Assembly (NCBI RefSeq): GCF_000024725.1
Contig: NC_013960.1
Location: 2,962,001 to 3,026,000 of the forward strand
Origin: Nitrosococcus halophilus Nc 4
Lineage (GTDB): Bacteria > Pseudomonadota > Gammaproteobacteria > Nitrosococcales > Nitrosococcaceae
Direction of reading: 5' to 3'
Length of the DNA stretch: 64,000 nucleotides
Part shown: positions 31,669-45,353 of the stretch, in pieces
Numbering within the stretch: position 1 is the first letter of the stretch
How the letters are laid out: each line of letters begins with the position of its first letter
Made by a program: the position numbers and the translations under genes
Notes under the pieces: model-generated
Database searches by the model: none
The model's input: the letters and a program-made list of their open reading frames with translations, nothing else
What the model was told of the DNA's origin: nothing

Positions 31669-32454
31669 CTAGAAAATAACCCACCGTGATATCCCATAAC
31701 GGGCATCAACCGCTAACAGTTCCCGCTTGACGTAAAATCCTAGAGCTCGCCGGCAACGTACTAAAAAAATACCTTCCTCATTAACGGGAAAATCGTGCAG
31801 TAAAGATTCTTGGGTTTCGGTGGGTAATTGTTCATTAGGCTTAAAACGCAATTCATCGTAGGTATTCCAGGCTGAATCATTGTAGGAAGAGACCCATTCA
31901 ATACCCGATGGCTCTGCATGGGTAATTCGAGACAGCACAAAATCCAGGAAAGCCTTCGAATAATGGCAGTAACCGCGGACATGGTAACGGTTATTGGCAA
32001 AGATTAACTGATTAGGTGATAGATCCCTCTCCTGAGCCCCGCTTTTGGCATGATAATAAATGGTAACGACCTGTTGCGTTCGTAAAGCGGATAATACTTT
32101 CTGCACTGAATTTTGCCGCAGTTGAGGCCGGAGCAACCGATCAACATCATGAAAGGGCAATCCTCCCCAGTCTGCATTGCTTAAGTAATAACTTATTATC
32201 GCCTGTCCACGTAGATAGTCCAAAAAAGCTTCAGCATTTTTTCGAATGTAGTGGGGTGAAAAATCGGCGCCGGCAACCTGTTTTCTGCCCACACGCCGAA
32301 TATTTTCCGGATGGCATTGGCGGTACTGGGTGATTACTTTCTGGGCATTCTGTCTCGCTATGCCGAATGTGTCAGCGAGTTGCCGGGCAGTCAATCCGCC
32401 TCCCCATAGCAAGCATGTTTCGATAAAAGCAAAGCGTGTAATGTCATCTTTCAT
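31669..32454 (-). CDS. WYL-domain transcriptional regulator (CapW/BrxR-like), divergent from the cas operon
   Basis: 261 residues. N-terminal winged helix (RFAFIETCLLWGGGLTARQLADTFGIARQNAQKVI), then a WYL domain with NNRYHVRGYCHYSKAFLDFVLSRI, then a small C-terminal dimerisation part. This order is that of CapW/BrxR repressors, which guard defence loci such as CBASS and BREX and are thought to sense a ligand through the WYL pocket. Its 5' end is 74 bp from the cas6 start and the genes diverge, so it probably represses or tunes the type I-D cas operon and itself. WYL proteins are known regulators beside CRISPR loci; this particular role is inferred. Confidence 0.8.
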   Translation of the reverse strand: MKDDITRFAFIETCLLWGGGLTARQLADTFGIARQNAQKVITQYRQCHPENIRRVGRKQVAGADFSPHYIRKNAEAFLDYLRGQAIISYYLSNADWGGLPFHDVDRLLRPQLRQNSVQKVLSALRTQQVVTIYYHAKSGAQERDLSPNQLIFANNRYHVRGYCHYSKAFLDFVLSRITHAEPSGIEWVSSYNDSAWNTYDELRFKPNEQLPTETQESLLHDFPVNEEGIFLVRCRRALGFYVKRELLAVDARYGISRWVIF

Positions 32455-32528: not shown

Positions 32529-33257
32529 ATGCATCGGATACGCATTAGCTTGCCTAAACGACAGTATGCTCGCTACCGCCATCTCGACCTTCTGCACGAT
32601 GCGCTCATCAACGCCTGGACTGCTGCGGGTGCTGATGCAGCGCAGGTATTGGGCAAGAATGCCGCGCCTTGGACGTTTGCCACTTTGGGTGGGCGCCGTG
32701 GCAATGAAGGTTGGGTGCATACTTTGGTGGTCTCCACATCAGATTCGGTTTTGGCCGGCTTTTTGGCCAGGTTCGATCCAGTTGATATTCGACAAGCCCG
32801 CGCCGTTACTGCGGAAATGGTGGATTTCAGCGCCGCCGAAATTATTCCGGAACCCAATCCAGTGCCTCCATTGGAAGGAGTCATGGGGGTGCTGTTGCTC
32901 TCGCCCCTGGTGATTAGCCAGCGTCAAGGTGGGCAGCGAGTTTGGTATCAGCAGCTTGGTACTTTCGATCTGTCTGCGGCGGTTAATGCACGTCTATCCC
33001 GCATCGCCGGGCGCAGGGTGGGGTTGCATGTCGAACCTGATTCGCTTTATTTGCGGGCTAATCCGAAACATTCAGTATTGGTCAGCCTAAAGCGCATGGA
33101 GAATGGCCGCCATGCTTTTGTCATCGGCATGAGCGCGCCGCTGGTGCTGGCAGGGACTGAAGAAGACTTGCAGTTGGCTTGGTATGCCGGGATCGGCGAG
33201 AAGACTCGCAATGGTTTTGGTTGCCTGGGATTACTGGAACGGGGGGTGGGGCGATGA
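32529..33257 (+). CDS. cas6: CRISPR pre-crRNA endoribonuclease Cas6 (type I-D)
   Basis: 242 residues, GAGGA at 32516-32520, 8 nt before the ATG. Two RAMP/ferredoxin-like halves; the C-terminal glycine-rich loop is GIGEKTRNGFGCLGLL, diagnostic of Cas6. It should cut the 28-nt repeat transcript at the base of its hairpin and keep the 8-nt 5' handle. First gene of the cas operon; its TGA overlaps the ATG of cas10d (ATGA), so translation is coupled. In I-D loci cas6 usually lies after csc1; here it leads the operon. Confidence 0.9.
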   Translation: MHRIRISLPKRQYARYRHLDLLHDALINAWTAAGADAAQVLGKNAAPWTFATLGGRRGNEGWVHTLVVSTSDSVLAGFLARFDPVDIRQARAVTAEMVDFSAAEIIPEPNPVPPLEGVMGVLLLSPLVISQRQGGQRVWYQQLGTFDLSAAVNARLSRIAGRRVGLHVEPDSLYLRANPKHSVLVSLKRMENGRHAFVIGMSAPLVLAGTEEDLQLAWYAGIGEKTRNGFGCLGLLERGVGR

Positions 33258-36109
33258 CCGCTTGGATGGAAACGGCCACTCGGGTAGCAGGCGACATTTA
33301 TCGAGAATTTCTTGAGCAGGTTATTGATAAAGGTGTTCTCAACGAGCGCATTGGTGTGCTCAGCGATGAAAACCGCCGCAAGATTCAAAGAGGCACCCAT
33401 ATTGATGCCCGAGTCCTGCGCCTGATGGCGGTTTCCGGGAAAGGGGGCTGGCATTCGGATCTCTCCCGGCGGGAGCAATTTGCCCGAAGCATCAATGTCA
33501 CGCTGCTGGATCATTTGCTTTCGGTGATACGAGGCGCGATGTTGTTGGCGGCACTCGATTGGCTGGGCCGTAACCCTGAAATGGACTTAACGTTACTTCA
33601 GCGGCGGTTGCGGGTGATTGCGGTCATTGCTTTTCTGCATGATTTGGATAAGTTGCTCCAACTGCAACGGAATATTGCGCTACCGCTGGAAGAAGTTAGC
33701 GATGCCATGGGGCGTTATCGGTTGAATGAATTTTTGGGCGATGACATCAGGCTGACCCCGGAACAGATTCGCTACCTGATCGAACAGGTGGAAGACACCC
33801 AAAACCTTCGCAGCCCTGTGCGTGAATTGCCGCCGCGCGAATTTGAGTCTTTGACCGGCTATGTGGCCCTTGCTGATAAACTGGACGGGATCTGGCTATC
33901 CGGCGATTCGGAAAAAGGTGGACTCACTGGGGTGCTCAAGCGACTCCAAACCGATCAGACACTGGCGACCCATATTCTGCGTGAGTGGAAACCATTGGAG
34001 ATTGTGGACCCACACCATCCCTTTTTACTGGATGAATTGCAATGTTGGCTGTCATGGAGCAGCGTCCAGCGGGTTGGGGTGCCGCCACTGATTGAAGTTC
34101 ATCAGGACGGCCGGCTTTTCTTGCTACTGCCTTTGCAGCACTTTGATCTCATCGTTGATCAAGCACTCAAGCGGTTGTGTGCCGATCTTCCTTTCCGGCT
34201 GGAGCTGAGCATTTCCAACCGGGGTGTGCCCGCACTTTACAACGGTCAACCGGATCATCAGGAGTTGCAAGCATTTATCGCTGATCTAGAGGATCACACT
34301 CTGGGTTCCTTATTTCGCATCAAAACCGATCTCAAGGATACCCTGACTCCACCACTGGATGCTTTGCTGAAGGAGTTGGATTTGCAGCCTCGTTGGCCGG
34401 GTAATGGGGGGGCGACCATTACTCCTTACCCAAAGCCCAGTGATCTACCGATAGCGGCCCAGGAGCACTTGCAACGGGCCGCTCATTTGGTGTTACTGCT
34501 CAACTTAAAGCTCGACGGCGCCAAGAAGCTGGGCTTGTCCGATTATTCAGCGCGGGAAGTAGCATTACTGGCTCTGGTGCCGGCTGAGCGCCCCGAATGG
34601 CTATCCAAGATCAATGATGACGCTACGCGACGGGTTGTTACCGTCCTTTGGGTCACTGCACTGGCCCAGAATGATAGGGATCTGGAGGCTACTATCTGGG
34701 GTGATGAAGGCTTGCTTCAGCGTTGGCTGGAAGGGGAAGAAAATCAACCGGGCTTTCGGGACGGCATTACGGGCCGAGGCCAGCAAGTTGTTAAGGCAGT
34801 GGAACGCCATTTCCGCCAACTTCTCGGGGGTCTGCGTATCACGCCGGAGAATGAGAACGCTACCGGTCGTTGCCTGTTCACTGATGAACCTGTCCCTTTC
34901 GATGAAAGAATTGATGAAGCGCTGGGTCTGTATGAAGTAAAGGTTTCAGCCTTCTCGGGGCGTGATGGGCGCGTTGAGTCGATTACTTCTGAACGTGCTC
35001 ACACCAATGTGAGTCCGGTAGCGGTAGCGGAGCACAAGCTGCGGGCGCAAGCTCATGGGCGCCAGGGAGGTAAGCCCGGAGGCGTCCCGACCTTGATTTC
35101 TTCCCCGACTACCAGCGGGTTATTCGGTGGACTGCGCTTGCCGGGCGATCAGTCCATGGCTGCCCTATCCCTTTACGATCTCAGCCGCCAAGAGGTTAAA
35201 AAAGGCACGGTTTATCAAGGTACGGAGATCTTTCAAGGGCGTTATCGGATGGCGCGGTTCGAGCGAATGGCCGAGAAAGTCGAAGACCAAGTCAATCAGC
35301 TGAGAATGTTGCTCCAGGCCACCCGCAGAATAGGCCGCCCTATTCATATTTTCCGCGGCCTGCCCACATTCCAACGGGCATTCTTTTACTACGATGCCAT
35401 GCCGCGAATGTTGGTGGATCTGATCGGGAGCAACAGCTTGCGTCTGGAACAGATTCCCGAGGCACTCGATCAACTGGTTCTTGCCCAGACACTGCTTGAC
35501 ACCCACGGCCTTGGCTACGACGTACTGCGCCGTTATGCCACACCGAACACACGCTTTGGCGCGGTCTGCCTAGTCTGGTGCCATCTCCGTGACCGGGACG
35601 AAAGCAGTACCCGTTGGGTGATGTCACGGCTGCAACATGAGTTTCTGCAACAACTGGAGAATCGGACTATGAGCACAGAGGAGGGCGCACTGGTGCGCTT
35701 AGGGAAACTGGCGGCGGGCATTCAATCGAGCCGGGTTAGCTCGACGAATGATGAGTTGCTGGTGTTCAAATTCTGCATGGAGACCGCGACCGCGGCGCGC
35801 GCTGCGGGCCAAGACGATGAACAATCATTGATCTATGCCGTCGCTGGAGAATTGGAAACCAACCTCACTCGGAAAGGCAAGGCGGCCGCCAGTAAATACC
35901 GGGAAGGTCAATCGCTCAAGGATGGCTGCCTGGAATTGGCCACATTTTTCGTCCGTGAAATCTGGAATGGCGTACTCAAGCGCCGCCCGCCGAGTCAAAC
36001 CAACCGCCGGGTTTTCGGCAGTATCTACCGCATGGCGTTTTTGCAGGCGGTACGCAACCGCCCCGATGACGAAAAGCCCGCCGAATCCGCAATCGCTGAA
36101 GGAGCCTGA
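33254..36109 (+). CDS. cas10d: Cas10d/Csc3, large subunit of type I-D with HD nuclease domain
   Basis: 951 residues from ATG 33254, which overlaps the cas6 stop and follows GGGGGGTGGGG. The N-terminal HD domain has DHLL (His87) and FLHDLDKLLQ (His129-Asp130), the nuclease that in type I-D replaces the HD domain of Cas3. A Cas10-like body follows; I find no GGDD palm motif, so no cyclic oligoadenylate synthesis is expected, as usual for Cas10d. CLFTDEPVPF and SITSERAHTNVSPVAVAEHKL are further family-like segments. It is the effector's large subunit. Defines the subtype together with csc1 and csc2. Confidence 0.9.
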   Translation: MTAWMETATRVAGDIYREFLEQVIDKGVLNERIGVLSDENRRKIQRGTHIDARVLRLMAVSGKGGWHSDLSRREQFARSINVTLLDHLLSVIRGAMLLAALDWLGRNPEMDLTLLQRRLRVIAVIAFLHDLDKLLQLQRNIALPLEEVSDAMGRYRLNEFLGDDIRLTPEQIRYLIEQVEDTQNLRSPVRELPPREFESLTGYVALADKLDGIWLSGDSEKGGLTGVLKRLQTDQTLATHILREWKPLEIVDPHHPFLLDELQCWLSWSSVQRVGVPPLIEVHQDGRLFLLLPLQHFDLIVDQALKRLCADLPFRLELSISNRGVPALYNGQPDHQELQAFIADLEDHTLGSLFRIKTDLKDTLTPPLDALLKELDLQPRWPGNGGATITPYPKPSDLPIAAQEHLQRAAHLVLLLNLKLDGAKKLGLSDYSAREVALLALVPAERPEWLSKINDDATRRVVTVLWVTALAQNDRDLEATIWGDEGLLQRWLEGEENQPGFRDGITGRGQQVVKAVERHFRQLLGGLRITPENENATGRCLFTDEPVPFDERIDEALGLYEVKVSAFSGRDGRVESITSERAHTNVSPVAVAEHKLRAQAHGRQGGKPGGVPTLISSPTTSGLFGGLRLPGDQSMAALSLYDLSRQEVKKGTVYQGTEIFQGRYRMARFERMAEKVEDQVNQLRMLLQATRRIGRPIHIFRGLPTFQRAFFYYDAMPRMLVDLIGSNSLRLEQIPEALDQLVLAQTLLDTHGLGYDVLRRYATPNTRFGAVCLVWCHLRDRDESSTRWVMSRLQHEFLQQLENRTMSTEEGALVRLGKLAAGIQSSRVSSTNDELLVFKFCMETATAARAAGQDDEQSLIYAVAGELETNLTRKGKAAASKYREGQSLKDGCLELATFFVREIWNGVLKRRPPSQTNRRVFGSIYRMAFLQAVRNRPDDEKPAESAIAEGA

Positions 36110-36111
36110 TC

Positions 36112-37110
36112 ATGGAACAATTTGCCACTCATCTAGGGTCAATCGAGCACTTGATGGATACTACTCGAATTGATTCCAAGAATACCTACATCCACCCTTC
36201 GCTCAAAAATCTGGGCGCCGTCAGCGTCGTGTTGTTGCGCGAGGCGGTCGCCCCCGTGGTATTTCGCAACGCCGAAGCAGAGATTACCGATATCGAAATC
36301 GGCCAGGATGTGTATGTCCGGGCCGTGCCCAACAAATTCAAATATCCGGAAAGGGGAAGGGGCTTGCAGGTTTTGCGGGCGCTCGGTGTTGGTGGCCGTT
36401 TGCCCCAGAATAAGACGGTGCTTTATAAGGGCCAGAAACCCTCCGAAGCCTTCGATCTCAACGCCTTGGTATTCGGGGATTCCTGCAACCACGATAACCG
36501 AGTCCTGCCGGTGAAAGCGGCGGTCAGCTATTCCGATGGACTGAGCCTTTTGCCCAAGCATCTTTGCGTCGACGAAACCTTTCACAATCGCGCCGCCGAA
36601 GATGGCACCCTGTTCGATGCCGAGAGCAAAAAAAACAGCGATAATCTATTCAGCCGTTTCTTTATCAAGCCCGGTACGCTCATGGTCCAGGTCCTTTCGA
36701 CTCGAGGTAAGGTTTTGCCCGAAATCGGCCTCAGGCACCTGATGCTTTGCGTAGGACTCGCCGGCGCTTATGGCGGGCAGACCTCCCTGACTGGAACCAA
36801 TATTCGTACCCATGTGGTTGGCATTTATGGTGGACGATTCGAGCAAGCCATCAGTTCGCCCTATGAATTAGTCAAAGTCCTGGCCTCTCAACCTGAGGAC
36901 GTATTACGCAACCCTACGGCCAGCAGCGAGACCTTGCATGGGCTACTAGCACCGGCTCATGAGACGGTTATGAACGGCGCAGAAGCCCAAACCTGGGTGA
37001 ATGATCTCGTCGCGAGTTTCGATACGGATGGCCCCTTGGCCGACGAATACCGGGCGGCAGCGCCCAAGGTGGCTGAATTGTTCGATAACTGGTTTGGTAA
37101 GGGAAAATGA
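36112..37110 (+). CDS. csc2: Csc2 (Cas7-type backbone protein, type I-D)
   Basis: 332 residues. The segments TYIHPSLKNLGAVSVVLLREA, FNLNALVFGDS-like FDLNALVFGDS, SRFFIKPGTLMVQVLSTRGKVLPE and AYGGQTSLTGTNIRTHVVGIYGG are characteristic of Csc2. Several copies polymerise along the crRNA spacer as the Cascade backbone. Starts 2 nt after the cas10d stop and overlaps csc1 by 4 nt. Confidence 0.93.
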   Translation: MEQFATHLGSIEHLMDTTRIDSKNTYIHPSLKNLGAVSVVLLREAVAPVVFRNAEAEITDIEIGQDVYVRAVPNKFKYPERGRGLQVLRALGVGGRLPQNKTVLYKGQKPSEAFDLNALVFGDSCNHDNRVLPVKAAVSYSDGLSLLPKHLCVDETFHNRAAEDGTLFDAESKKNSDNLFSRFFIKPGTLMVQVLSTRGKVLPEIGLRHLMLCVGLAGAYGGQTSLTGTNIRTHVVGIYGGRFEQAISSPYELVKVLASQPEDVLRNPTASSETLHGLLAPAHETVMNGAEAQTWVNDLVASFDTDGPLADEYRAAAPKVAELFDNWFGKGK

Positions 37111-37790
37111 GCGATCAGCCGCAGGCAGTGTCTTTTGGCAGCTTTGGCGACTCTTCGGCTCCTGTCCCCGCCATCGGAGTGGTGGCGGAGACTCTCACCT
37201 CCTTTGCCTACCATTCGCTGATGGTGCAAAGCGGTACGGCGACCTTGCCCGAGCTGATCGGTGATCGGGCGATCGCCTTTGGCCTGGCCGCCACACTTGG
37301 GATGATGTCGGCACGGGTGGCTTTGCCGGCGCGGGATTACCGGCGCCATCTAGCGGCCATGCCTTACCGGACTTCGGTATTTGTCACTCCCGAGCCTAAG
37401 CTTCTGTCGCCGCTGATCAAGCGTTTGAATCTGGATGCCGAGGCTGGTTTACAGGAGAAGGTCGCAAATGTGGCCCGCAAGGGTAATCTGAAGGATTTCT
37501 TCATGATTCAGGAAGTCCCGCCCGGGCAGGTTTATCGGGGTGCGATTTTTGGCCTCGATCCTTTTGAGGCTTTCGGACAGGGCGAATTGGTGATCCGCAT
37601 CGGCCTTCACCGCTCGGGCATGGTCCGTCTTAGGCCGGATACCCAGAGCGAGACGGTCTGCTTGAATGCGGCGACGGCGGCCCTATTTGGCCAGGATCTG
37701 CCCGTGGCGCGATACTGTTTGTATGGCTTGCAGCTCACGCCGCCATTGGGGCTGGAGGACGCGGCCGAGGAGGTCCGGCAATGGCACTGA
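37107..37790 (+). CDS. csc1: Csc1 (Cas5-type subunit, type I-D)
   Basis: 227 residues. Start ATG overlaps the csc2 TGA (ATGA) and the end overlaps cas3 by 10 nt. RAMP-type protein with ETLTSFAYHSLMVQSGT at the N-terminus and YCLYGLQLTPPLGLEDAAEE at the C-terminus, as in Csc1. It should cap the 5' handle of the crRNA and join Csc2 to Cas10d. Position between csc2 and cas3 supports the call, since Cas5-type sequences are poorly conserved. Confidence 0.87.
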   Translation: MSDQPQAVSFGSFGDSSAPVPAIGVVAETLTSFAYHSLMVQSGTATLPELIGDRAIAFGLAATLGMMSARVALPARDYRRHLAAMPYRTSVFVTPEPKLLSPLIKRLNLDAEAGLQEKVANVARKGNLKDFFMIQEVPPGQVYRGAIFGLDPFEAFGQGELVIRIGLHRSGMVRLRPDTQSETVCLNAATAALFGQDLPVARYCLYGLQLTPPLGLEDAAEEVRQWH

Positions 37791-39769
37791 CGATTGCCCG
37801 ACATTGTGTTGCCCAGGGGGCCGATGGGTTATCTCCGTTGCAAGCGGCGTTGCTGCACGCGCCGGAGCGGGTGCGGATTGCCGATGCGCCTACCGGAGCA
37901 GGCAAGACCTTCGCTTTTCAGCGGGCGGTCATGCAGGGGCAGCGGGTGCTGTTTATCGTGCCGACCCGTCGATTGGCCCAGAATATCGCGGCAGGCTTGA
38001 TCCGCGATCTCACCACCTCAGCCCATTGGCCGCGGGAGAAGGCCGAGAGCAAGGTGGAAATATGGAGTTCGGACCGTACCGTTCAACTCCTGTCAGAAGA
38101 CATCAAGAACATCGCTGGGCATCGTATTCGGCAGATACGGGATCTTGACCCGACCCGTGAGGGTGGCGAGATGATCATCGCCGTACCGGAGGTGATCAGT
38201 CATTTGTTGCTACGGCCTCGGTTGGATGCCGGGCAGGCGGCTACCGGGGTATTTGATTTGCTGCGGCAGTTCGATCACATCGTGTTCGATGAGTTCCACA
38301 CCATCGAGGCGCGGGGGTTTGGCCTGGCCGCACTCTGCGCCCGGCTAGCTAGCGCTGAGAACCCGGATGGCTCCCGTTTTGGTCGAGCGAAGGTGTCGTT
38401 TCTGTCAGCGACTCCCCTTGATATTCAACCGGTACTGGAAAGACTTGGCGTGCCGGCTCCGGAGATAGCCCCGCTACGAGAATCGCTGACTGGGCAAGGG
38501 CGGCCGGTACATGGCGATGTGTCCCTATCATTCACGGATCGGGAAACTTTAGCCCAGGTGGTGGAGGATCAGATTGTCGCAATTGCAGCCGAGGTCGAAG
38601 CGCGTCGGCAGGTGGTGTTGATCTATAACCGTCTCGGCGATCTGATCCGTGAAATGCCGGACTTGATCCAGGCATTCGCTCAAGCAGGCATTCCGGCTGA
38701 ACAAGTGCTGGTGATTAATAGCATCGCCGATAGTGGCAAAGAGGGTATTCGCGCCCTGGGATACCGGACCGGCCGGTCACGCAATCCGGATGATTTTTCG
38801 GTGTTGGTGGCAACGGCCAGCGTCGAGGTAGGCGTCACCTTCCGGGAGGCGAATCTGATGCTGATGGAGCCGGGGTTCGCACCGATGAATTTTCTCCAGC
38901 GCTATGGCCGCGCCGCCCGGCGGGGTGCGGATGGGCGCGTTATTGTGCGCCATGACCCCTATATCATGGGACGCAACCCTTGGATTCGCGATTTGCTCAA
39001 GTGGGCGCTCGAGCAGGATGGCGAACGGGTTGATATCCAACAGTTGACCGAGCGACTGAGTGCCGCGACGCAAAAGGCTTTTGAGGATAGGGGGGAGGAC
39101 AATCCGCGTTTTTTCGGCGCCCTACCAAACCGGGCCGTCTACACGGCAGGGTTGTATTGGAATGCGCTCATGGGCCATAAAAGCAACCGTGGTCCCCGCT
39201 ATGAGCACCTTAGGAATCATCAACCGCCCAGCGCGGGCGCCATCCGCAACTGGCTACATCAAGTGCGTGCCATGGAGCAGGATCGGCTGTTCGGGGCCAA
39301 TGCCCGGCGTTGGTGCGAGCGTTTCGAGCGGCAGGCCTATGTGCTGCGGGATATTGCCCAGCGGGTGCGGGTGGTACAGGGGGATGGAAATGTCATTGAG
39401 GTCGATCCCGCATTTCTGGAGCGGGAAACGACCATTCTGGATTTGCCGATGCTGGAAGGACCCCAGGGTCAGCCGGAGGTGCGGTTGCAAGACGAATTGG
39501 AGGATCACCTGCGCGATCAACGTCAGCTCGCCCAGCGCCTGGTGACGGTGTACTTTCCCCATACGGGGGATTCCGCCCAGTTGAGTGCAGGGGAGGGATT
39601 AGTTGATGCTTGGTGTCGTGCACTTCGTGGTCGAAGGGGGCCGTCCGCAATGGCTTGGGACGATTATCCCGAAGCCATGGCCGCCGCTGAAAAATTGGTC
39701 CGCCTGACGGGCCTGGTGCCGAGTGATGACGACACCCTTTCATTGGCCGCAAGCCACTGCGTTCTTTGA
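37781..39769 (+). CDS. cas3: Type I-D Cas3 helicase (Cas3', without HD domain)
   Basis: 662 residues, superfamily 2 helicase: motif I DAPTGAGKT (35-43), motif II DEFH (170-173), motif III SAT (209-211) and motif VI QRYGRAARRG (373-382). There is no HD nuclease before the helicase, as expected because Cas10d carries HD. It is recruited to the R-loop and unwinds target DNA. DEFH replaces the common DEAH/DEVH. Starts within the last codons of csc1. Confidence 0.92.
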   Translation: MALTIARHCVAQGADGLSPLQAALLHAPERVRIADAPTGAGKTFAFQRAVMQGQRVLFIVPTRRLAQNIAAGLIRDLTTSAHWPREKAESKVEIWSSDRTVQLLSEDIKNIAGHRIRQIRDLDPTREGGEMIIAVPEVISHLLLRPRLDAGQAATGVFDLLRQFDHIVFDEFHTIEARGFGLAALCARLASAENPDGSRFGRAKVSFLSATPLDIQPVLERLGVPAPEIAPLRESLTGQGRPVHGDVSLSFTDRETLAQVVEDQIVAIAAEVEARRQVVLIYNRLGDLIREMPDLIQAFAQAGIPAEQVLVINSIADSGKEGIRALGYRTGRSRNPDDFSVLVATASVEVGVTFREANLMLMEPGFAPMNFLQRYGRAARRGADGRVIVRHDPYIMGRNPWIRDLLKWALEQDGERVDIQQLTERLSAATQKAFEDRGEDNPRFFGALPNRAVYTAGLYWNALMGHKSNRGPRYEHLRNHQPPSAGAIRNWLHQVRAMEQDRLFGANARRWCERFERQAYVLRDIAQRVRVVQGDGNVIEVDPAFLERETTILDLPMLEGPQGQPEVRLQDELEDHLRDQRQLAQRLVTVYFPHTGDSAQLSAGEGLVDAWCRALRGRRGPSAMAWDDYPEAMAAAEKLVRLTGLVPSDDDTLSLAASHCVL

Positions 39770-40274
39770 GCGGGTTGAGCGCCTGAATCTGCACGGGCTC
39801 CACTTCCAACATGTACGGTTGTGCGAGCGCCGGGCCTGGATGCATTTGCATGGCATCAGTTTCGCCCAGTGGAACCGGCATGTGCAGATTGGCATGGCTC
39901 AGCACGACACCAGCTACGCCCGTGATCGTTCGACACAAGGACTATTTGGCCTCGCGCCCGACCGTATCGATTGGAAACACAACATCGTCTACGAGAGCAA
40001 GGGTACCGGTGGCGCCGTTGAGGCGGTAAGCGACCAGACCGCTTTCTATGCCTTGTTGCTGTCGATCGCGACCGGCAAGACCTGGCGGGCCGTCACCCAT
40101 GTGTTGTCTACACGTAAGCGGCGCGAAGTTGTTCTCGACGAAGCCCGGATGCAACAGCTCTGGGAATCTTCCGAACGCCTTGAGCGGCTGGCGCAGCAAA
40201 CCCAGGTGCCATCCGCCAAGCGCATCCCCTTGTGCGCCAGTTGTTCCCTCGCTGCTTTTTGCGGTTATGACTGA
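39726..40274 (+). CDS. cas4: Cas4 exonuclease for spacer integration
   Basis: 182 residues from ATG 39726, overlapping cas3 by 44 nt. Fe-S cysteines are visible at RLCERRAWM (one Cys) and CASCSLAAFC (three). The RecB-like nuclease core has DRIDW and VYESKGTGGAVEAVSDQTAFYAL (Asp, then E-x-K). Cas4 trims prespacers and helps choose PAM and orientation with Cas1-Cas2. Normal size for the CRISPR-linked family. Starts the adaptation module. Confidence 0.92.
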   Translation: MTTPFHWPQATAFFERVERLNLHGLHFQHVRLCERRAWMHLHGISFAQWNRHVQIGMAQHDTSYARDRSTQGLFGLAPDRIDWKHNIVYESKGTGGAVEAVSDQTAFYALLLSIATGKTWRAVTHVLSTRKRREVVLDEARMQQLWESSERLERLAQQTQVPSAKRIPLCASCSLAAFCGYD

Positions 40275-40283
40275 AGGTTTACT

Positions 40284-41252
40284 ATGGAAACTTTGTTTGT
40301 TTCCCGCGAGGCACGGCTTCGGCGGCGGGAAAATACCTTATCAATCACGATAGAAGGCAAGACCCGGGCCTTTCCTATTGAAACCATTGGCCATCTCGTC
40401 CTGCTCGCTGAAAGCACCCTCAATTCCAAGCTGCTGACTTTATGTGGAAAGCATGGGGTTAGATTATCGGTATTCGATTATTACGGCTATTTCAAGGGCT
40501 CCTTCGAGCCCTTCAACCGTAACCCTTCGGGACAGGTCAAACTGGCCCAAGCTGAAATACTGTTAAATGAAACTCAACGGATGGCGCTTGCACGGGAACT
40601 CGTCCGTGGAGCTGCCCATAATATGCAGGCTAACCTACTGTACTATCGCTATCGAGGTAAAACGGGGTTGGAAGCTATGCTCAAGGAAATGAAACGCTTA
40701 GTGAATCTTATCCCTAAGGCCCAAGATTCCTCCACCCTGATGGGAATTGAGGGCAATCTGCATCAATGGTATTACAAAGCATGGAAGCTGATTGATCCTG
40801 TTCTTGACTTTACACCCCGAGTACGACGGCCTCCCAACAATCCCATTAATTGCTTATTATCTTTTCTTAACCAGTTGACCTATACGATCGTTCGCCACGA
40901 GCTATTCAAAACTCATCTGGAGGAAACCTTTAGCTTGCTTCACAGTCCAGGTAACGGTCGTTCATCTTTAAGTTTGGATCTTGCAGAACCTTTTAAACCC
41001 ATACTTGCAGATAGCCTTATTTTCCGTATGTTGGGCCGCAAGATGCTCGATGCAAGTTGGTTTGAGCAGTATGAAGGGGTGTGCCTGCTGAGCGAAACAG
41101 GCCGCCGCAATATTGCAGAGCAATTTTCCATCCGTCTGGAAGAACGGTATCAGGATCGCAGCTTTCGGGAATGGATCTACAGAGAGGCATTGGCTATTGA
41201 GCGCCACTTTTTAGGGGTGGCTGAGTATGAATCGTTCAAGCGAAAAGTATAA
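40284..41252 (+). CDS. cas1: CRISPR integrase Cas1
   Basis: 322 residues. Metal ligands Glu156 (GIEGN), His220 (LLHSPGNGR) and the Asp232/Glu235 pair (SLDLAEPFKP) are present, so the enzyme should be active. N-terminal beta domain METLFVSREARLRRRENTL. It integrates new spacers with Cas2. Begins 9 bp after cas4. Base composition from here on is clearly less GC-rich than in cas6-cas4. Confidence 0.95.
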   Translation: METLFVSREARLRRRENTLSITIEGKTRAFPIETIGHLVLLAESTLNSKLLTLCGKHGVRLSVFDYYGYFKGSFEPFNRNPSGQVKLAQAEILLNETQRMALARELVRGAAHNMQANLLYYRYRGKTGLEAMLKEMKRLVNLIPKAQDSSTLMGIEGNLHQWYYKAWKLIDPVLDFTPRVRRPPNNPINCLLSFLNQLTYTIVRHELFKTHLEETFSLLHSPGNGRSSLSLDLAEPFKPILADSLIFRMLGRKMLDASWFEQYEGVCLLSETGRRNIAEQFSIRLEERYQDRSFREWIYREALAIERHFLGVAEYESFKRKV

Positions 41253-41258
41253 ATAATT

Positions 41259-41561
41259 ATGTATATGTTGATAACCTACGATGTGGATGCTAAGCGCACT
41301 GAGAAGTTTAAAAAACTGTTACGGCGTTATCTGAATCACGATCAATACTCAGTATTTTCTGGAGACATCACCGAAGCCGAGGCAATCAGGCTGCATCGTG
41401 AGCTGAGTCGATTAATGGTTCCAGGCGATCGGGTCACTGAAGTTACGGCAGCTAACCGCCGCAATATTAATGTGACTCACCTATCTAAGAGTGATTCTGG
41501 GAAGGGTGAGATGAAAAGGGTACCTGTAGAGGATCACCGACGAGATTTTTCTGTTTTATGA
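41259..41561 (+). CDS. cas2: CRISPR integration subunit Cas2
   Basis: 100 residues starting MYMLITYDVDAKRT, the ferredoxin-like strand with the conserved Asp; GDRVTEVTAANRR follows. It forms the Cas1-Cas2 integration complex. It is 6 bp after cas1 and ends the operon. The leader and the array follow immediately. Confidence 0.93.
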   Translation: MYMLITYDVDAKRTEKFKKLLRRYLNHDQYSVFSGDITEAEAIRLHRELSRLMVPGDRVTEVTAANRRNINVTHLSKSDSGKGEMKRVPVEDHRRDFSVL

Positions 41562-41700
41562 CATAATGGTAATTTGCTGGGAACTTCGACCTCCAATGAA
41601 GTTGAATACTATTAGGATCGACGCATCTTTATCTGGAATAGCCGGTTATTTTTCCTTTATTATAATGTTGGAAGGTTATTCCAAGCCCTAATATAGAGGG
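41562..41700 (+). promoter_or_regulatory. CRISPR leader
   Basis: 139 bp between the cas2 stop and the first repeat. AT-rich, with the run ttatttttcctttattataatg close to the array. Position beside cas2 and the fact that the degenerate repeat lies at the opposite end make this the leader side. The array promoter should lie here; TATAAT at about 41670 is a good -10 candidate. Confidence 0.65.
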
Positions 41701-43980
41701 GTTACGAATCCCTATAAGGGGTTATGAGGCTTCTATCTTTTGCTTGCGAATCGTCTCTGCCCAGGTTACGAATCCCTATAAGGGGTTATGAGAACAGTAG
41801 CGCCACGCTTGATTTCACGACGCTTGAGAGTTACGAATCCCTATAAGGGGTTATGAGGGCTTTGATCCAGCAAAAGAAGCCTCTGAACCAGAGGTTACGA
41901 ATCCCTATAAGGGGTTATGAGTTTGCCGGGCCACTTTTACAGGAGTAAAAAATCATGGTTACGAATCCCTATAAGGGGTTATGAGTCTACCTCCAAAAGA
42001 TATGGTTAGCTATCCGTAGCGGGTTACGAATCCCTATAAGGGGTTATGAGCAAGGATTAGCGGGTCAGATATCAAGTTTTCTAAATGGTTACGAATCCCT
42101 ATAAGGGGTTATGAGCTTTGGTGATCTTGCCCATCACCTGACCAATGGCGGGTTACGAATCCCTATAAGGGGTTATGAGCCGTCCATGGTGACATCCTCT
42201 ATAAACGCTTCCATAGGTTACGAATCCCTATAAGGGGTTATGAGCTTCTCTTTCGCGTATTGCTTCAATTGCCCGTAAAAGTTACGAATCCCTATAAGGG
42301 GTTATGAGGCTCACCGCTAAACTTCAGCATCAGCTCTAACGGAGGTTACGAATCCCTATAAGGGGTTATGAGTTGATGTTCGTGAACGTGTAGGAATCAC
42401 CGCTAGATGTTACGAATCCCTATAAGGGGTTATGAGTGGATAGACCTATTACCACTTTGTGGCGCGTCCAATGTTACGAATCCCTATAAGGGGTTATGAG
42501 CTGCCTAAGCGATAGAAATGTGGCCCCGCTAGTCCAGTTACGAATCCCTATAAGGGGTTATGAGATTTCTGTTGGCGTGCCACCTAAAGAAATTTTCAGG
42601 TTACGAATCCCTATAAGGGGTTATGAGGGCGATGGTGGGAGCAGACCAAAGGGGCAGACGCCCGTTACGAATCCCTATAAGGGGTTATGAGCTGCCTAAG
42701 CGATAGAAATGTGGCCCCGCTAGTCCAGTTACGAATCCCTATAAGGGGTTATGAGCCTCCCCTCAGCCAATTTCTCAATATATTTTTTAGCGTTACGAAT
42801 CCCTATAAGGGGTTATGAGAATTCAAATATTTGGTCATCCGTCCATTCTGGAGACGTTACGAATCCCTATAAGGGGTTATGAGCCCTTCCTGTAGTCCAC
42901 GCACCCGGCACGAAAATACCGGTTACGAATCCCTATAAGGGGTTATGAGGTCGTCAACGCCCCAGAAATTGGCGCGTCCAAATAGTGTTACGAATCCCTA
43001 TAAGGGGTTATGAGGAGGGAAGATAGCTCGATGCCACAACACCGAATACAGTTACGAATCCCTATAAGGGGTTATGAGCGGTAGTATAGTTTTGATAACT
43101 GCTGCAAGTGCACGAGTTACGAATCCCTATAAGGGGTTATGAGATTTGCGCTATACGCATCATCGGCTCAATTAGGAAGGTTACGAATCCCTATAAGGGG
43201 TTATGAGAGCGTTAATCTCAACAATATGGATAACGCTATCTCGTTACGAATCCCTATAAGGGGTTATGAGGCGGGTTGAGCATTTGCACCTTGGTCCCGT
43301 CGAGTTGGTTACGAATCCCTATAAGGGGTTATGAGATCGACGTGACCTCAGACGCGGACGCGTTCCTGGCGGTTACGAATCCCTATAAGGGGTTATGAGA
43401 ACAAAAACTTGGCCGTATCGCTGACTTATAGCAAAGGTTACGAATCCCTATAAGGGGTTATGAGAAGGACGGTTCCGGGAATGCTTATCTCTGGGATTTG
43501 GTTACGAATCCCTATAAGGGGTTATGAGTTGCTTGATAGGTTGAGCAGCACTCGGTCAGCAAATGTTACGAATCCCTATAAGGGGTTATGAGATGTCAGG
43601 GTTTCTAGGATCGGGAGATTTATATTTCGTGTTACGAATCCCTATAAGGGGTTATGAGTTGACCGAGACATCCGGCTCGGTAACTTTTAGCGTGGTTACG
43701 AATCCCTATAAGGGGTTATGAGGTCAAAAACTTGGTACTCGTAACGGAATGTGTAGGTGTTACGAATCCCTATAAGGGGTTATGAGGCTGCGAATATTGC
43801 TGAAGTTATGGATTATATCGACAGTTACGAATCCCTATAAGGGGTTATGAGTCGTTCATCAGCGGGGATTGCCCTTTTGACAGTTCTAGTTACGAATCCC
43901 TATAAGGGGTTATGAGCCATTGGCGTCCGAGCTTTCGGTCAGGGCGGTGCCGGTTACGAATCCCTATAAGGGGTTATGAG
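41701..43980 (+). CRISPR. Type I-D CRISPR array, leader-proximal segment (36 repeats)
   Basis: 36 repeats of 28 bp beginning GTTACGAATCC and ending GGGGTTATGAG, all identical as read, with spacers of 35 to 38 nt. First repeat 41701-41728, last 43953-43980. AATCCCT and AGGGGTT pair around ATA to form a 7-bp hairpin for Cas6, leaving a handle near GTTATGAG. The spacer at 42501-42536 is repeated at 42692-42727. The array is cut after repeat 36 by an IS630 element inside the next spacer. Confidence 0.98.
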
Positions 43981-44008
43981 GATTGTTGCAAATGGCCTTG
44001 CTCCTGTA

Positions 44009-45055
44009 TAGCTGTTCTCATTTAAGTTAGGGACAGAGTCCACAATGCTTAAAGTAGGCTTGACAGTTTTGGGGTGAAATCAGCGTGAGCGCTTCGCTGA
44101 GGGCCTCATAAAGCTGCTCTTTTGTCCGGGCCGCTTTTTTCTTCAGGACATGTTTTAGCTTAGACCAGGCGTACTCAATGGGATTGAGTTCAGGGTGATA
44201 GGGCGGTAAAAAGACCACTTTGGCGCCGGTCTGCTCGATCTTCTCGATCGCCTCTTCATATCGGTGCGCAGCGGCATTGTCTAAAATGACTACTTTCCCT
44301 TCCTGGAGGTGAGACCAGAGGAAATGTTCGACATAATAGAGGAAAACCGGGCCATTGAGCGTGCCCTCAAAGCACATCGCGGGAAGCGCACCCGTCAGGG
44401 ATAGGGCGCCGATGGTGCTGATGCGTTCGCCTTGGGTGGTCGGTTTTTCCCCGTAGGCTCTTTGCCCTTGAGGCGCCCGTCCATAGGTGGGGGTCAGATT
44501 CAATACCGCCCCGGTTTCATCGAGCACAATGAAGTCTTCGGGGGAACACAGGCTTACTTTGATCCAATACTCAAGCCAGCGTTGTTGGACCCGGGGGGTG
44601 TGTTTTTGGGGATCGTAGAACGTTTTTTTTTTCGCGTGATCCGGTGCTTTTTCAGCCCTCGGTCCATGGCCGAGGTGCTTATCGTTTCGCCAAAGCGCAC
44701 TTCAAATCGCTGACACAATTCCTGGAGCGTTAAATCGGGTTCGCACTGCAACACCTCGGTCAAATACTGGGCCCTCGGCTCATCAATCTTTGCCGGATGT
44801 CCCACTCCTTCCCCGCGCTTGGGATGGACCGTCCCCGTCTCCCGAAGGCGCTTCAGAAAACCACTGACCGTGTTCTTCGACAGTTTAAATCGTGTCGCCA
44901 ACTGACGAATCGAACCCTCTTTGTTCGCATAGGCTTCAATGACTTTTTGGCGTAGGTCCAATGAGTAAGGCGCAGGCATAACATTTAAACCCATCTAATT
45001 TGGTTGAAAAAATAGATAACTCTAATATTGTGCCTAATAAAAACGGGAATTGCTA
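44009..45055 (-). mobile_element. IS630-family insertion inside a CRISPR spacer
   Basis: 1047 bp. The left end reads TAGCTGTTCTCATTT; the right end read inwards is TAGCAATTCCCGTTT, an imperfect terminal inverted repeat. TA stands on both sides (44007-44008 and 45056-45057), the family's target duplication. Removing element and one TA leaves a 35-nt spacer between perfect repeats. It carries one transposase gene in two frames. Insertion separates five repeats from the leader. Confidence 0.9.
44027..44979 (-). CDS. IS630-family transposase, two frames joined by -1 frameshift
   Basis: Upstream frame from ATG 44979 (MPAPYSLDLRQKVIEAYANK) is the helix-turn-helix part and ends in ITRKKKRSTIP-. The downstream frame has the DDE catalytic core: VLDETGAVLNL, VVILDNAAAHR and HPELNPIEYAWSKLK. 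The junction is a run of ten A (minus strand, around 44623-44632) containing the slippery A-AAA-AAA; reading it with a -1 shift gives KKTFYDPQKHTPRVQQRW, normal family sequence. So the element is probably intact and uses ribosomal frameshifting or transcript slippage. Alternatively it is a simple indel mutation. Confidence 0.85.
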
Positions 45056-45064
45056 TATAGCCGC

Positions 45065-45353
45065 GTTACGAATCCCTATAAGGGGTTATGAGTCGCGCGC
45101 GCGCGTATTATATTTATTATTATCTTCTATGTTACGAATTCCTATAAGGGGTTATGAGCCAAAGAAACAGGAGCGCTTGCTGTATCCATCATTTAAGTTA
45201 CGAATCCCTATAAGGGGTTATGAGGGCTCCAGAATCAGGCTTACATGAACAAGCTTAAGCGTTACGAATCCCTATAAGGGGTTATGAGCATCAGGGAATC
45301 CCATCCATTTGTCTATCGAGTGCTGGTTACGAATCCCTATAAGGGGTTATGAG
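45065..45353 (+). CRISPR. Type I-D CRISPR array, leader-distal segment (5 repeats)
   Basis: Five repeats start at 45065, 45131, 45197, 45261 and 45326. The second has one C-to-T change (GAATTCC for GAATCCC). Its preceding spacer, 45093-45130, is 38 nt of CG alternation followed by an AT-rich run. This is the old end of the array, cut off from the leader by the IS630 insertion. With the 36 upstream repeats the total is 41 repeats and 40 spacers. Confidence 0.97.

Follow-up and report, generated by a model that had tools for sequence, protein, structure and literature searches.

The type I-D locus and its targets

The window, that is the whole stretch of 64,000 nucleotides of the Nitrosococcus halophilus Nc 4 genome that was analysed, holds a CRISPR-Cas locus in the order WYL regulator, cas6d, cas10d, cas7d, cas5d, cas3d, cas4d, cas1 and cas2, followed by the array (Table 1). 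The locus was assigned to type I-D by the presence of Cas10d together with a separate Cas3 helicase (1441 bits for Cas10_Id and 892 bits for Cas3d) and of Cas7d/Csc2, Cas5d/Csc1 and Cas6d, the matches being strong for Cas5d and Cas6d and weak for Cas7d (E 2e-11), with a Csc2 match for the latter. The same components (Cas10d, Cas7d, Cas5d, Cas6d, Cas3, Cas4, Cas1, Cas2 and a WYL regulator) are described for the type I-D systems of Synechocystis and Microcystis (PMC10212523, excerpt), but in contrast to these, Cas1 and Cas2 of the window best match I-B-type models.

Table 1. Features of the type I-D locus and its array, with positions counted from the first letter of the window.
Feature	Position	Strand	Remarks
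WYL-domain regulator	31669..32454	-	
cas6d	32529..33257	+	
cas10d	33179..36109	+	ORF as listed; true start may be downstream
cas7d (Csc2)	36112..37110	+	
cas5d	37107..37790	+	
cas3d helicase	37781..39769	+	
cas4d	39723..40274	+	
cas1	40284..41252	+	
cas2	41259..41561	+	
Probable leader side, cas2 to first repeat	41562..41700	+	side inferred
CRISPR array	41701..45353	+	41 repeats of 28 nt, 39 intact spacers of 35-38 nt, insertion element inside
Repeat-spacer 13-repeat	42473..42564	+	92 nt, identical to 42664-42755
Spacer 13, first copy	42501..42536	+	36 nt
Spacer 14	42565..42599	+	35 nt, single copy
Spacer 15	42628..42663	+	36 nt, single copy
Repeat-spacer 16-repeat	42664..42755	+	92 nt, identical to 42473-42564
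Spacer 16, second copy	42692..42727	+	identical to spacer 13
Spacer 30	43593..43630	+	matches resident prophage-like region, 5 mismatches
Spacer 35	43917..43952	+	matches same prophage-like region, 2 mismatches
IS630-type insertion element	44009..45055	-	flanked by TA, in the spacer after repeat 36

Forty of the repeats are identical and one (at 45131) carries a single mismatch. The array goes on beyond the inserted IS630-type element, a part that was missing from the preliminary description. The transposase of this element is encoded in two ORFs (Pfam HTH_Tnp_IS630 and DDE_3); close to where the two meet, the + strand shows a T run, which is an A run in the coding sense. The ends of the element were read by eye, as was the length of 35 nt that the broken spacer would have if restored. 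Directly after the element stands a simple-sequence spacer (45093-45130; alternating CG, then A/T-rich), which precedes the only mutated repeat of the array.

The leader probably lies on the left, adjoining cas2, since degenerate repeats are found at the right end of several related arrays, and since in the diverged spacer pairs described below the left boundary is fixed and the right end variable, as would be expected with the PAM side on the left. The left flanks of the three protospacers found with mismatches (AAC, AAA and ACC; n = 3 only) are neither GTN, the PAM reported for type I-D (PMC10212523, excerpt), nor clearly alike.

Spacers 30 and 35 correspond to positions 992383-992420 and 999701-999736 of contig C2 of the same genome, about 7 kb apart and with 5 and 2 mismatches, respectively, in a region labelled as prophage from a reading of its ORFs. 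This is a tolerated self-target, and phages of this host thus seem to be recorded in the array. Searches against phages with 37 of the 38 distinct spacers gave no match; the simple-sequence spacer was excluded from this assay and also from those against the own genome and five relatives. When the first 35 spacers were compared with plasmids together with their repeats, only another CRISPR array was found, and a related array (G471) gave no match to phages either.

A spacer present twice and the arrays comparable to it

The preliminary description had claimed that the spacers at 42501-42536 and 42692-42727 are identical, which was confirmed at the coordinates given there: in the read-out of the array, both lie on one strand and agree at 36 of 36 nt. 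The starts of both copies are 191 bp apart, which corresponds to three units, and the identity extends to 92 nt when the repeats at both sides are included. Spacers 14 and 15, as well as the outer neighbours of the pair, are each present once in the array, so that the intervening spacers are indeed unlike all others, as had also been described. No other exact pair exists among the 39 intact spacers, the next longest common word being of 12 nt (spacers 12 and 20). Thus, spacers 13 and 16 agree in both length and sequence, and each is flanked by repeats of this array, as in a duplication; units 14 and 15 have no second copy, as they would in a tandem block, and the differences in sequence or length expected from separate acquisitions are absent. 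Chance identity of 36 nt was ruled out, as around 2e-16 such pairs are expected over the whole survey of 763 spacers presented below.

To account for the pair, it had been proposed either that the same protospacer was taken twice or that recombination was followed by partial loss, on the correct ground that a clean single block duplication would take the neighbours along. The protospacer search in phages and plasmids suggested at that point gave no match for the duplicated spacer by blastn. The exact 36-mer was not present in viral_contigs, nor were its 20-nt and 19-nt parts; in the own genome it was found in the array itself only, with 14 mismatches at the best site of the 80-kb prophage-like region, and a search of five relatives, run without a positive control, was negative too. 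The suggested search for variants of the array revealed no second isolate carrying it: of 59 genomes searched, the own one had the 92-nt unit and the other 58 lacked it, and the exact repeat was found in two other organisms of the genome collection, both with different spacers. In place of a direct history of the duplicate, arrays comparable to it were used to weigh how it came about.

For this, the repeat family of the window array was surveyed in 10 genomes, with 17 array pieces and 763 spacers, counting array pieces with at least four repeats; single repeats (L023 and G462) and the array of the public plasmid pTfr153 were left uncounted. The repeat pattern was matched in 8 of 63, 1 of 398 (the own genome) and 1 of 311 genomes (G863) of the sets searched. 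Cas10_Id was detected in 4 of 369 genomes, two of which were left out of the duplicate count, one with no array in the stretch taken (G386) and the other with a different repeat (G174).

Non-adjacent exact duplicates formed eight clusters in this family. Six were isolated pairs like that of the window (13/16), namely L022 23/27, G361 21/23 and 27/29, and G484 32/34 and 77/80, with distances of 2, 2, 2, 3, 3 and 4 units over the six. The other two were a full 5-unit tandem block (L021) and a complex cluster in units 65-74 of G478 (2-4 units), which reads a d' c a d e f g d g, where d' is d with one mismatch, and which from its order fits well a block duplication with partial loss. Adjacent exact duplicates were present in G471, in G472 (twice, once with four copies) and in G478. 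Exact duplicates more than five units apart were not found among the 763 spacers, despite arrays of up to 113 spacers, and no exact spacer was common to two arrays of the survey. These numbers leave few pairs behind the tests below, G361 and G863 are draft genomes, and spacer 28 of G361, inside one of the pairs, contains an N.

Two further observations were made in these arrays. The repeat variants CCCCTTGC and CCCCTTAC are interspersed with consensus repeats in the trailer third of the G361 array (L040, 1595-3723), which holds both of its duplicates, as if units had been shuffled. In G478 (C1, 541872-550384), two cas1 genes are separated by about 8 kb, and each precedes an array; the two arrays share their repeat and hold 73 and 76 spacers.

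As arrays of identical repeats are easily misassembled, the duplicate could be an artefact of assembly, which we consider very improbable: the own genome is assembled in 2 contigs and the duplicate pattern recurs in independent assemblies. Moreover, the G472 array is the same 103-spacer array as that of pTfr153 (Thiothrix fructosivorans), duplicates included, although both could derive from shared reads.

Further CRISPR arrays in the hosts of the survey, with 382 spacers in 16 array pieces, contained two isolated pairs, one partial block, two adjacent pairs and one diverged adjacent pair. In the own genome, a type I-F array adjoined by Cas3f, Cas8f and Cas6f has the spacer order a b c d a b e f a b, so that a run of two spacers is present three times in the same order; it starts at 14985 of L135 (C2, 1178000-1197900), and the a-b run recurs every four units, the spacers in the gaps being different each time. 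It is not believable that two spacers were acquired independently three times over in an identical order. Also in the own genome, an isolated pair of equal length lies 2 units apart in an array that adjoins cas1 and a Csx1-like CARF gene and is probably of type III; three other ORFs near this array matched no PADLOC family at E 1e-15. Short-range duplicates are thus independent of the type I-D proteins and of this repeat, and are met again alongside other Cas1 proteins.

Outside the arrays, the I-D repeat of the G474 and G478 arrays was detected as one lone, exact copy in intergenic position in each of two related IMG/VR phage contigs, L067 (7525-7550, - strand) and L068 (1459-1484, - strand), which share 8156 of the 14537 30-mers of L068. 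It follows an I-F-like repeat (21 of 28 nt as in the host I-F repeats) at a distance of a few bases, after a promoter-like stretch, and adjoins phage genes that include a portal-like and a ParA-like ORF, named from their translations. By analogy, this pair of repeats looks like an RNA anti-CRISPR (Racr; PMC10651486, excerpt) directed against I-F and I-D. Against this reading, the fold predicted for 88 nt retains the hairpin of the I-F-like unit, whereas the I-D copy is paired with the sequence that follows it. In the main text of the Racr paper, as excerpted, 'I-D' occurs in the reference list only (PMC10651486).

Probable copying within the array and possible repeated acquisition

If the same protospacer had been taken twice, Cas1-Cas2-Cas4 would have chosen a favoured phage site again after two other acquisitions. 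Several pairs in the repeat family suggest that such events do happen. Spacers 4/7 of G478 (2 mismatches, 36 and 37 nt, distance 3), 37/40 of G484 (4 mismatches, 37 and 36 nt, distance 3), 9/32 of G361 (5 mismatches, distance 23) and 62/88 of G484 (1 mismatch, distance 26) share exactly their left boundary, and two of the four pairs are unequal in length at the right end; in G478 4/7 and G484 37/40 the neighbours are isolated too. Judged by sequence, each pair seems to stem from one protospacer captured on two occasions, from related sources, although G484 62/88 could be instead an old mutated copy, in which case copying would not always be short-range. In further pairs (G471 5/18, G471 38/44, M22 4/24 and G472 2/68) the protospacers overlap partially, on the same or on opposite strands. 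Therefore, protospacer sites are revisited, and re-acquisition, as read from these sequences, is a process of this repeat family even at short range.

In contrast to the diverged pairs, the pair of the window is exact in both sequence and length. On the side of re-acquisition, type I-D spacers are reported to spread over 5-6 nt in length, as is common with Cas4 (PMC10212523, excerpt). None of the six isolated exact pairs differs in length, two being of the rarer 37 nt; P for such an outcome is 0.0035 under independent acquisition with the length frequencies of each array. For the window pair alone, this probability is 0.541, so its equal length says little by itself. Pairs with the same sequence and different length were absent from the survey. 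Regarding distance, the product over the six isolated pairs of the probability of lying as close or closer under random placement is 1.5e-6, and exact pairs were never more than five units apart; nevertheless, two of the diverged pairs lie also at distance 3, which weakens this argument, as short distance alone is not decisive. Together with the triple run of the I-F array, these data make a second acquisition a possible but less likely origin of spacers 13 and 16.

Thus, of the two processes that had been put forward, both are visible in related arrays, and the weight falls on copying inside the array, based on the equal lengths, the short distances and the like duplicates in two other arrays of the own genome. 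Most likely, spacers 13 and 16 result from one repeat-spacer unit copied a few units away within the type I-D array. The repeats are perfect 28-bp direct repeats, to the wrong one of which a replicating or repairing strand could anneal; the misannealed strand would then copy one unit (64 bp) and go back to its original place, or convert the unit there. We infer such a strand switch, or a non-reciprocal conversion, as the step that would leave an A-X-Y-A order with unrelated neighbours. A counterpoint to the copying of single units is the I-F array, where two units are copied at once. As both copies would yield the same crRNA, the functional effect of the duplicate is probably small.

One step or two

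Copying within the array could also have proceeded in two steps, a tandem duplication of three units followed by deletion of the neighbours of one copy, which is the 'recombination and partial loss' of the preliminary description. G478 units 65-74 are as such a duplication and partial loss would leave them, block deletions with a mean of 2.7 units are typical (PMC11472070, excerpt), and a full 5-unit tandem block is present in L021. The expected outcome was assayed by simulations that combined gain at the leader end, random block deletion (mean of 2.7 units, after the excerpt of PMC11472070) and tandem block duplication, under seven parameter sets with rates chosen by hand and not fitted to the data. 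Isolated pairs made up from 3 to 24% of the simulated non-adjacent duplicate clusters, compared to 6 of 8 in the repeat family (P 0.0034 at 24%) and 8 of 11 when the other arrays of the same hosts were added (P 0.00089 at 24%). The two-step route is therefore disfavoured as a general source, leaving isolated pairs too rare; it accounts for the G478 cluster and could underlie any given pair, and for the window pair we regard it as rather doubtful. Ectopic acquisition between two tandem copies was given low weight, as several rare events would be needed.

A short-range copy of a single unit in one step fits better, and is favoured but unproven. It is conceivable, as a tentative proposal, that this constitutes a distinct rearrangement in which one unit, or at times two, would be copied over a distance of 2-4 units with no tandem block, across CRISPR types and independently of the adaptation proteins.

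Duplications of this kind have been described. SpacerPlacer identified 805 duplication candidates among 24,090 spacers, classified as 695 duplications, 43 rearrangements, 8 reacquisitions, 7 independent insertions and 52 others (PMC11472070, excerpt). Among Streptococcus agalactiae isolates taken in series, those of one woman came to carry a distant spacer twice and those of another showed a spacer switch (PMC5641575, excerpt), and the parsimony cost assigned by the CRISPR Comparison Toolkit is 1 for a duplication and 50 for an independent acquisition (PMC10457644, excerpt). Spacers 13 and 16 are therefore another case of a known and fairly common rearrangement. The duplications by repeat misalignment of the SpacerPlacer data (PMC11472070, excerpt) and of S. 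agalactiae CRISPR1 (PMC5641575, excerpt) are likewise exact copies of units inside an array, with a host and a CRISPR type that differ from those of the I-D array of this work; what is added here to these excerpted reports is the measurement that isolated pairs at 2-4 units outnumber full blocks. In the open-licence literature no report was found that singles out isolated short-range copies from block copies, which does not prove their absence. The reacquisition and independent acquisition classes of SpacerPlacer (PMC11472070, excerpt) would also give the same spacer twice, whereas the reacquisition-like pairs of this family differ in sequence and, in two of four cases, in length.

The order of spacers serves as a time record of infections and in strain typing. 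Should single units often be copied to a nearby place, this order would be locally unreliable, and a spacer seen twice would not mean two infections. In the diverged spacers with one exactly shared boundary, the survey reveals the opposite process as well, the repeated capture of one site. Copying and re-capture can be separated by differences in length and sequence, which provides a simple test for other arrays.
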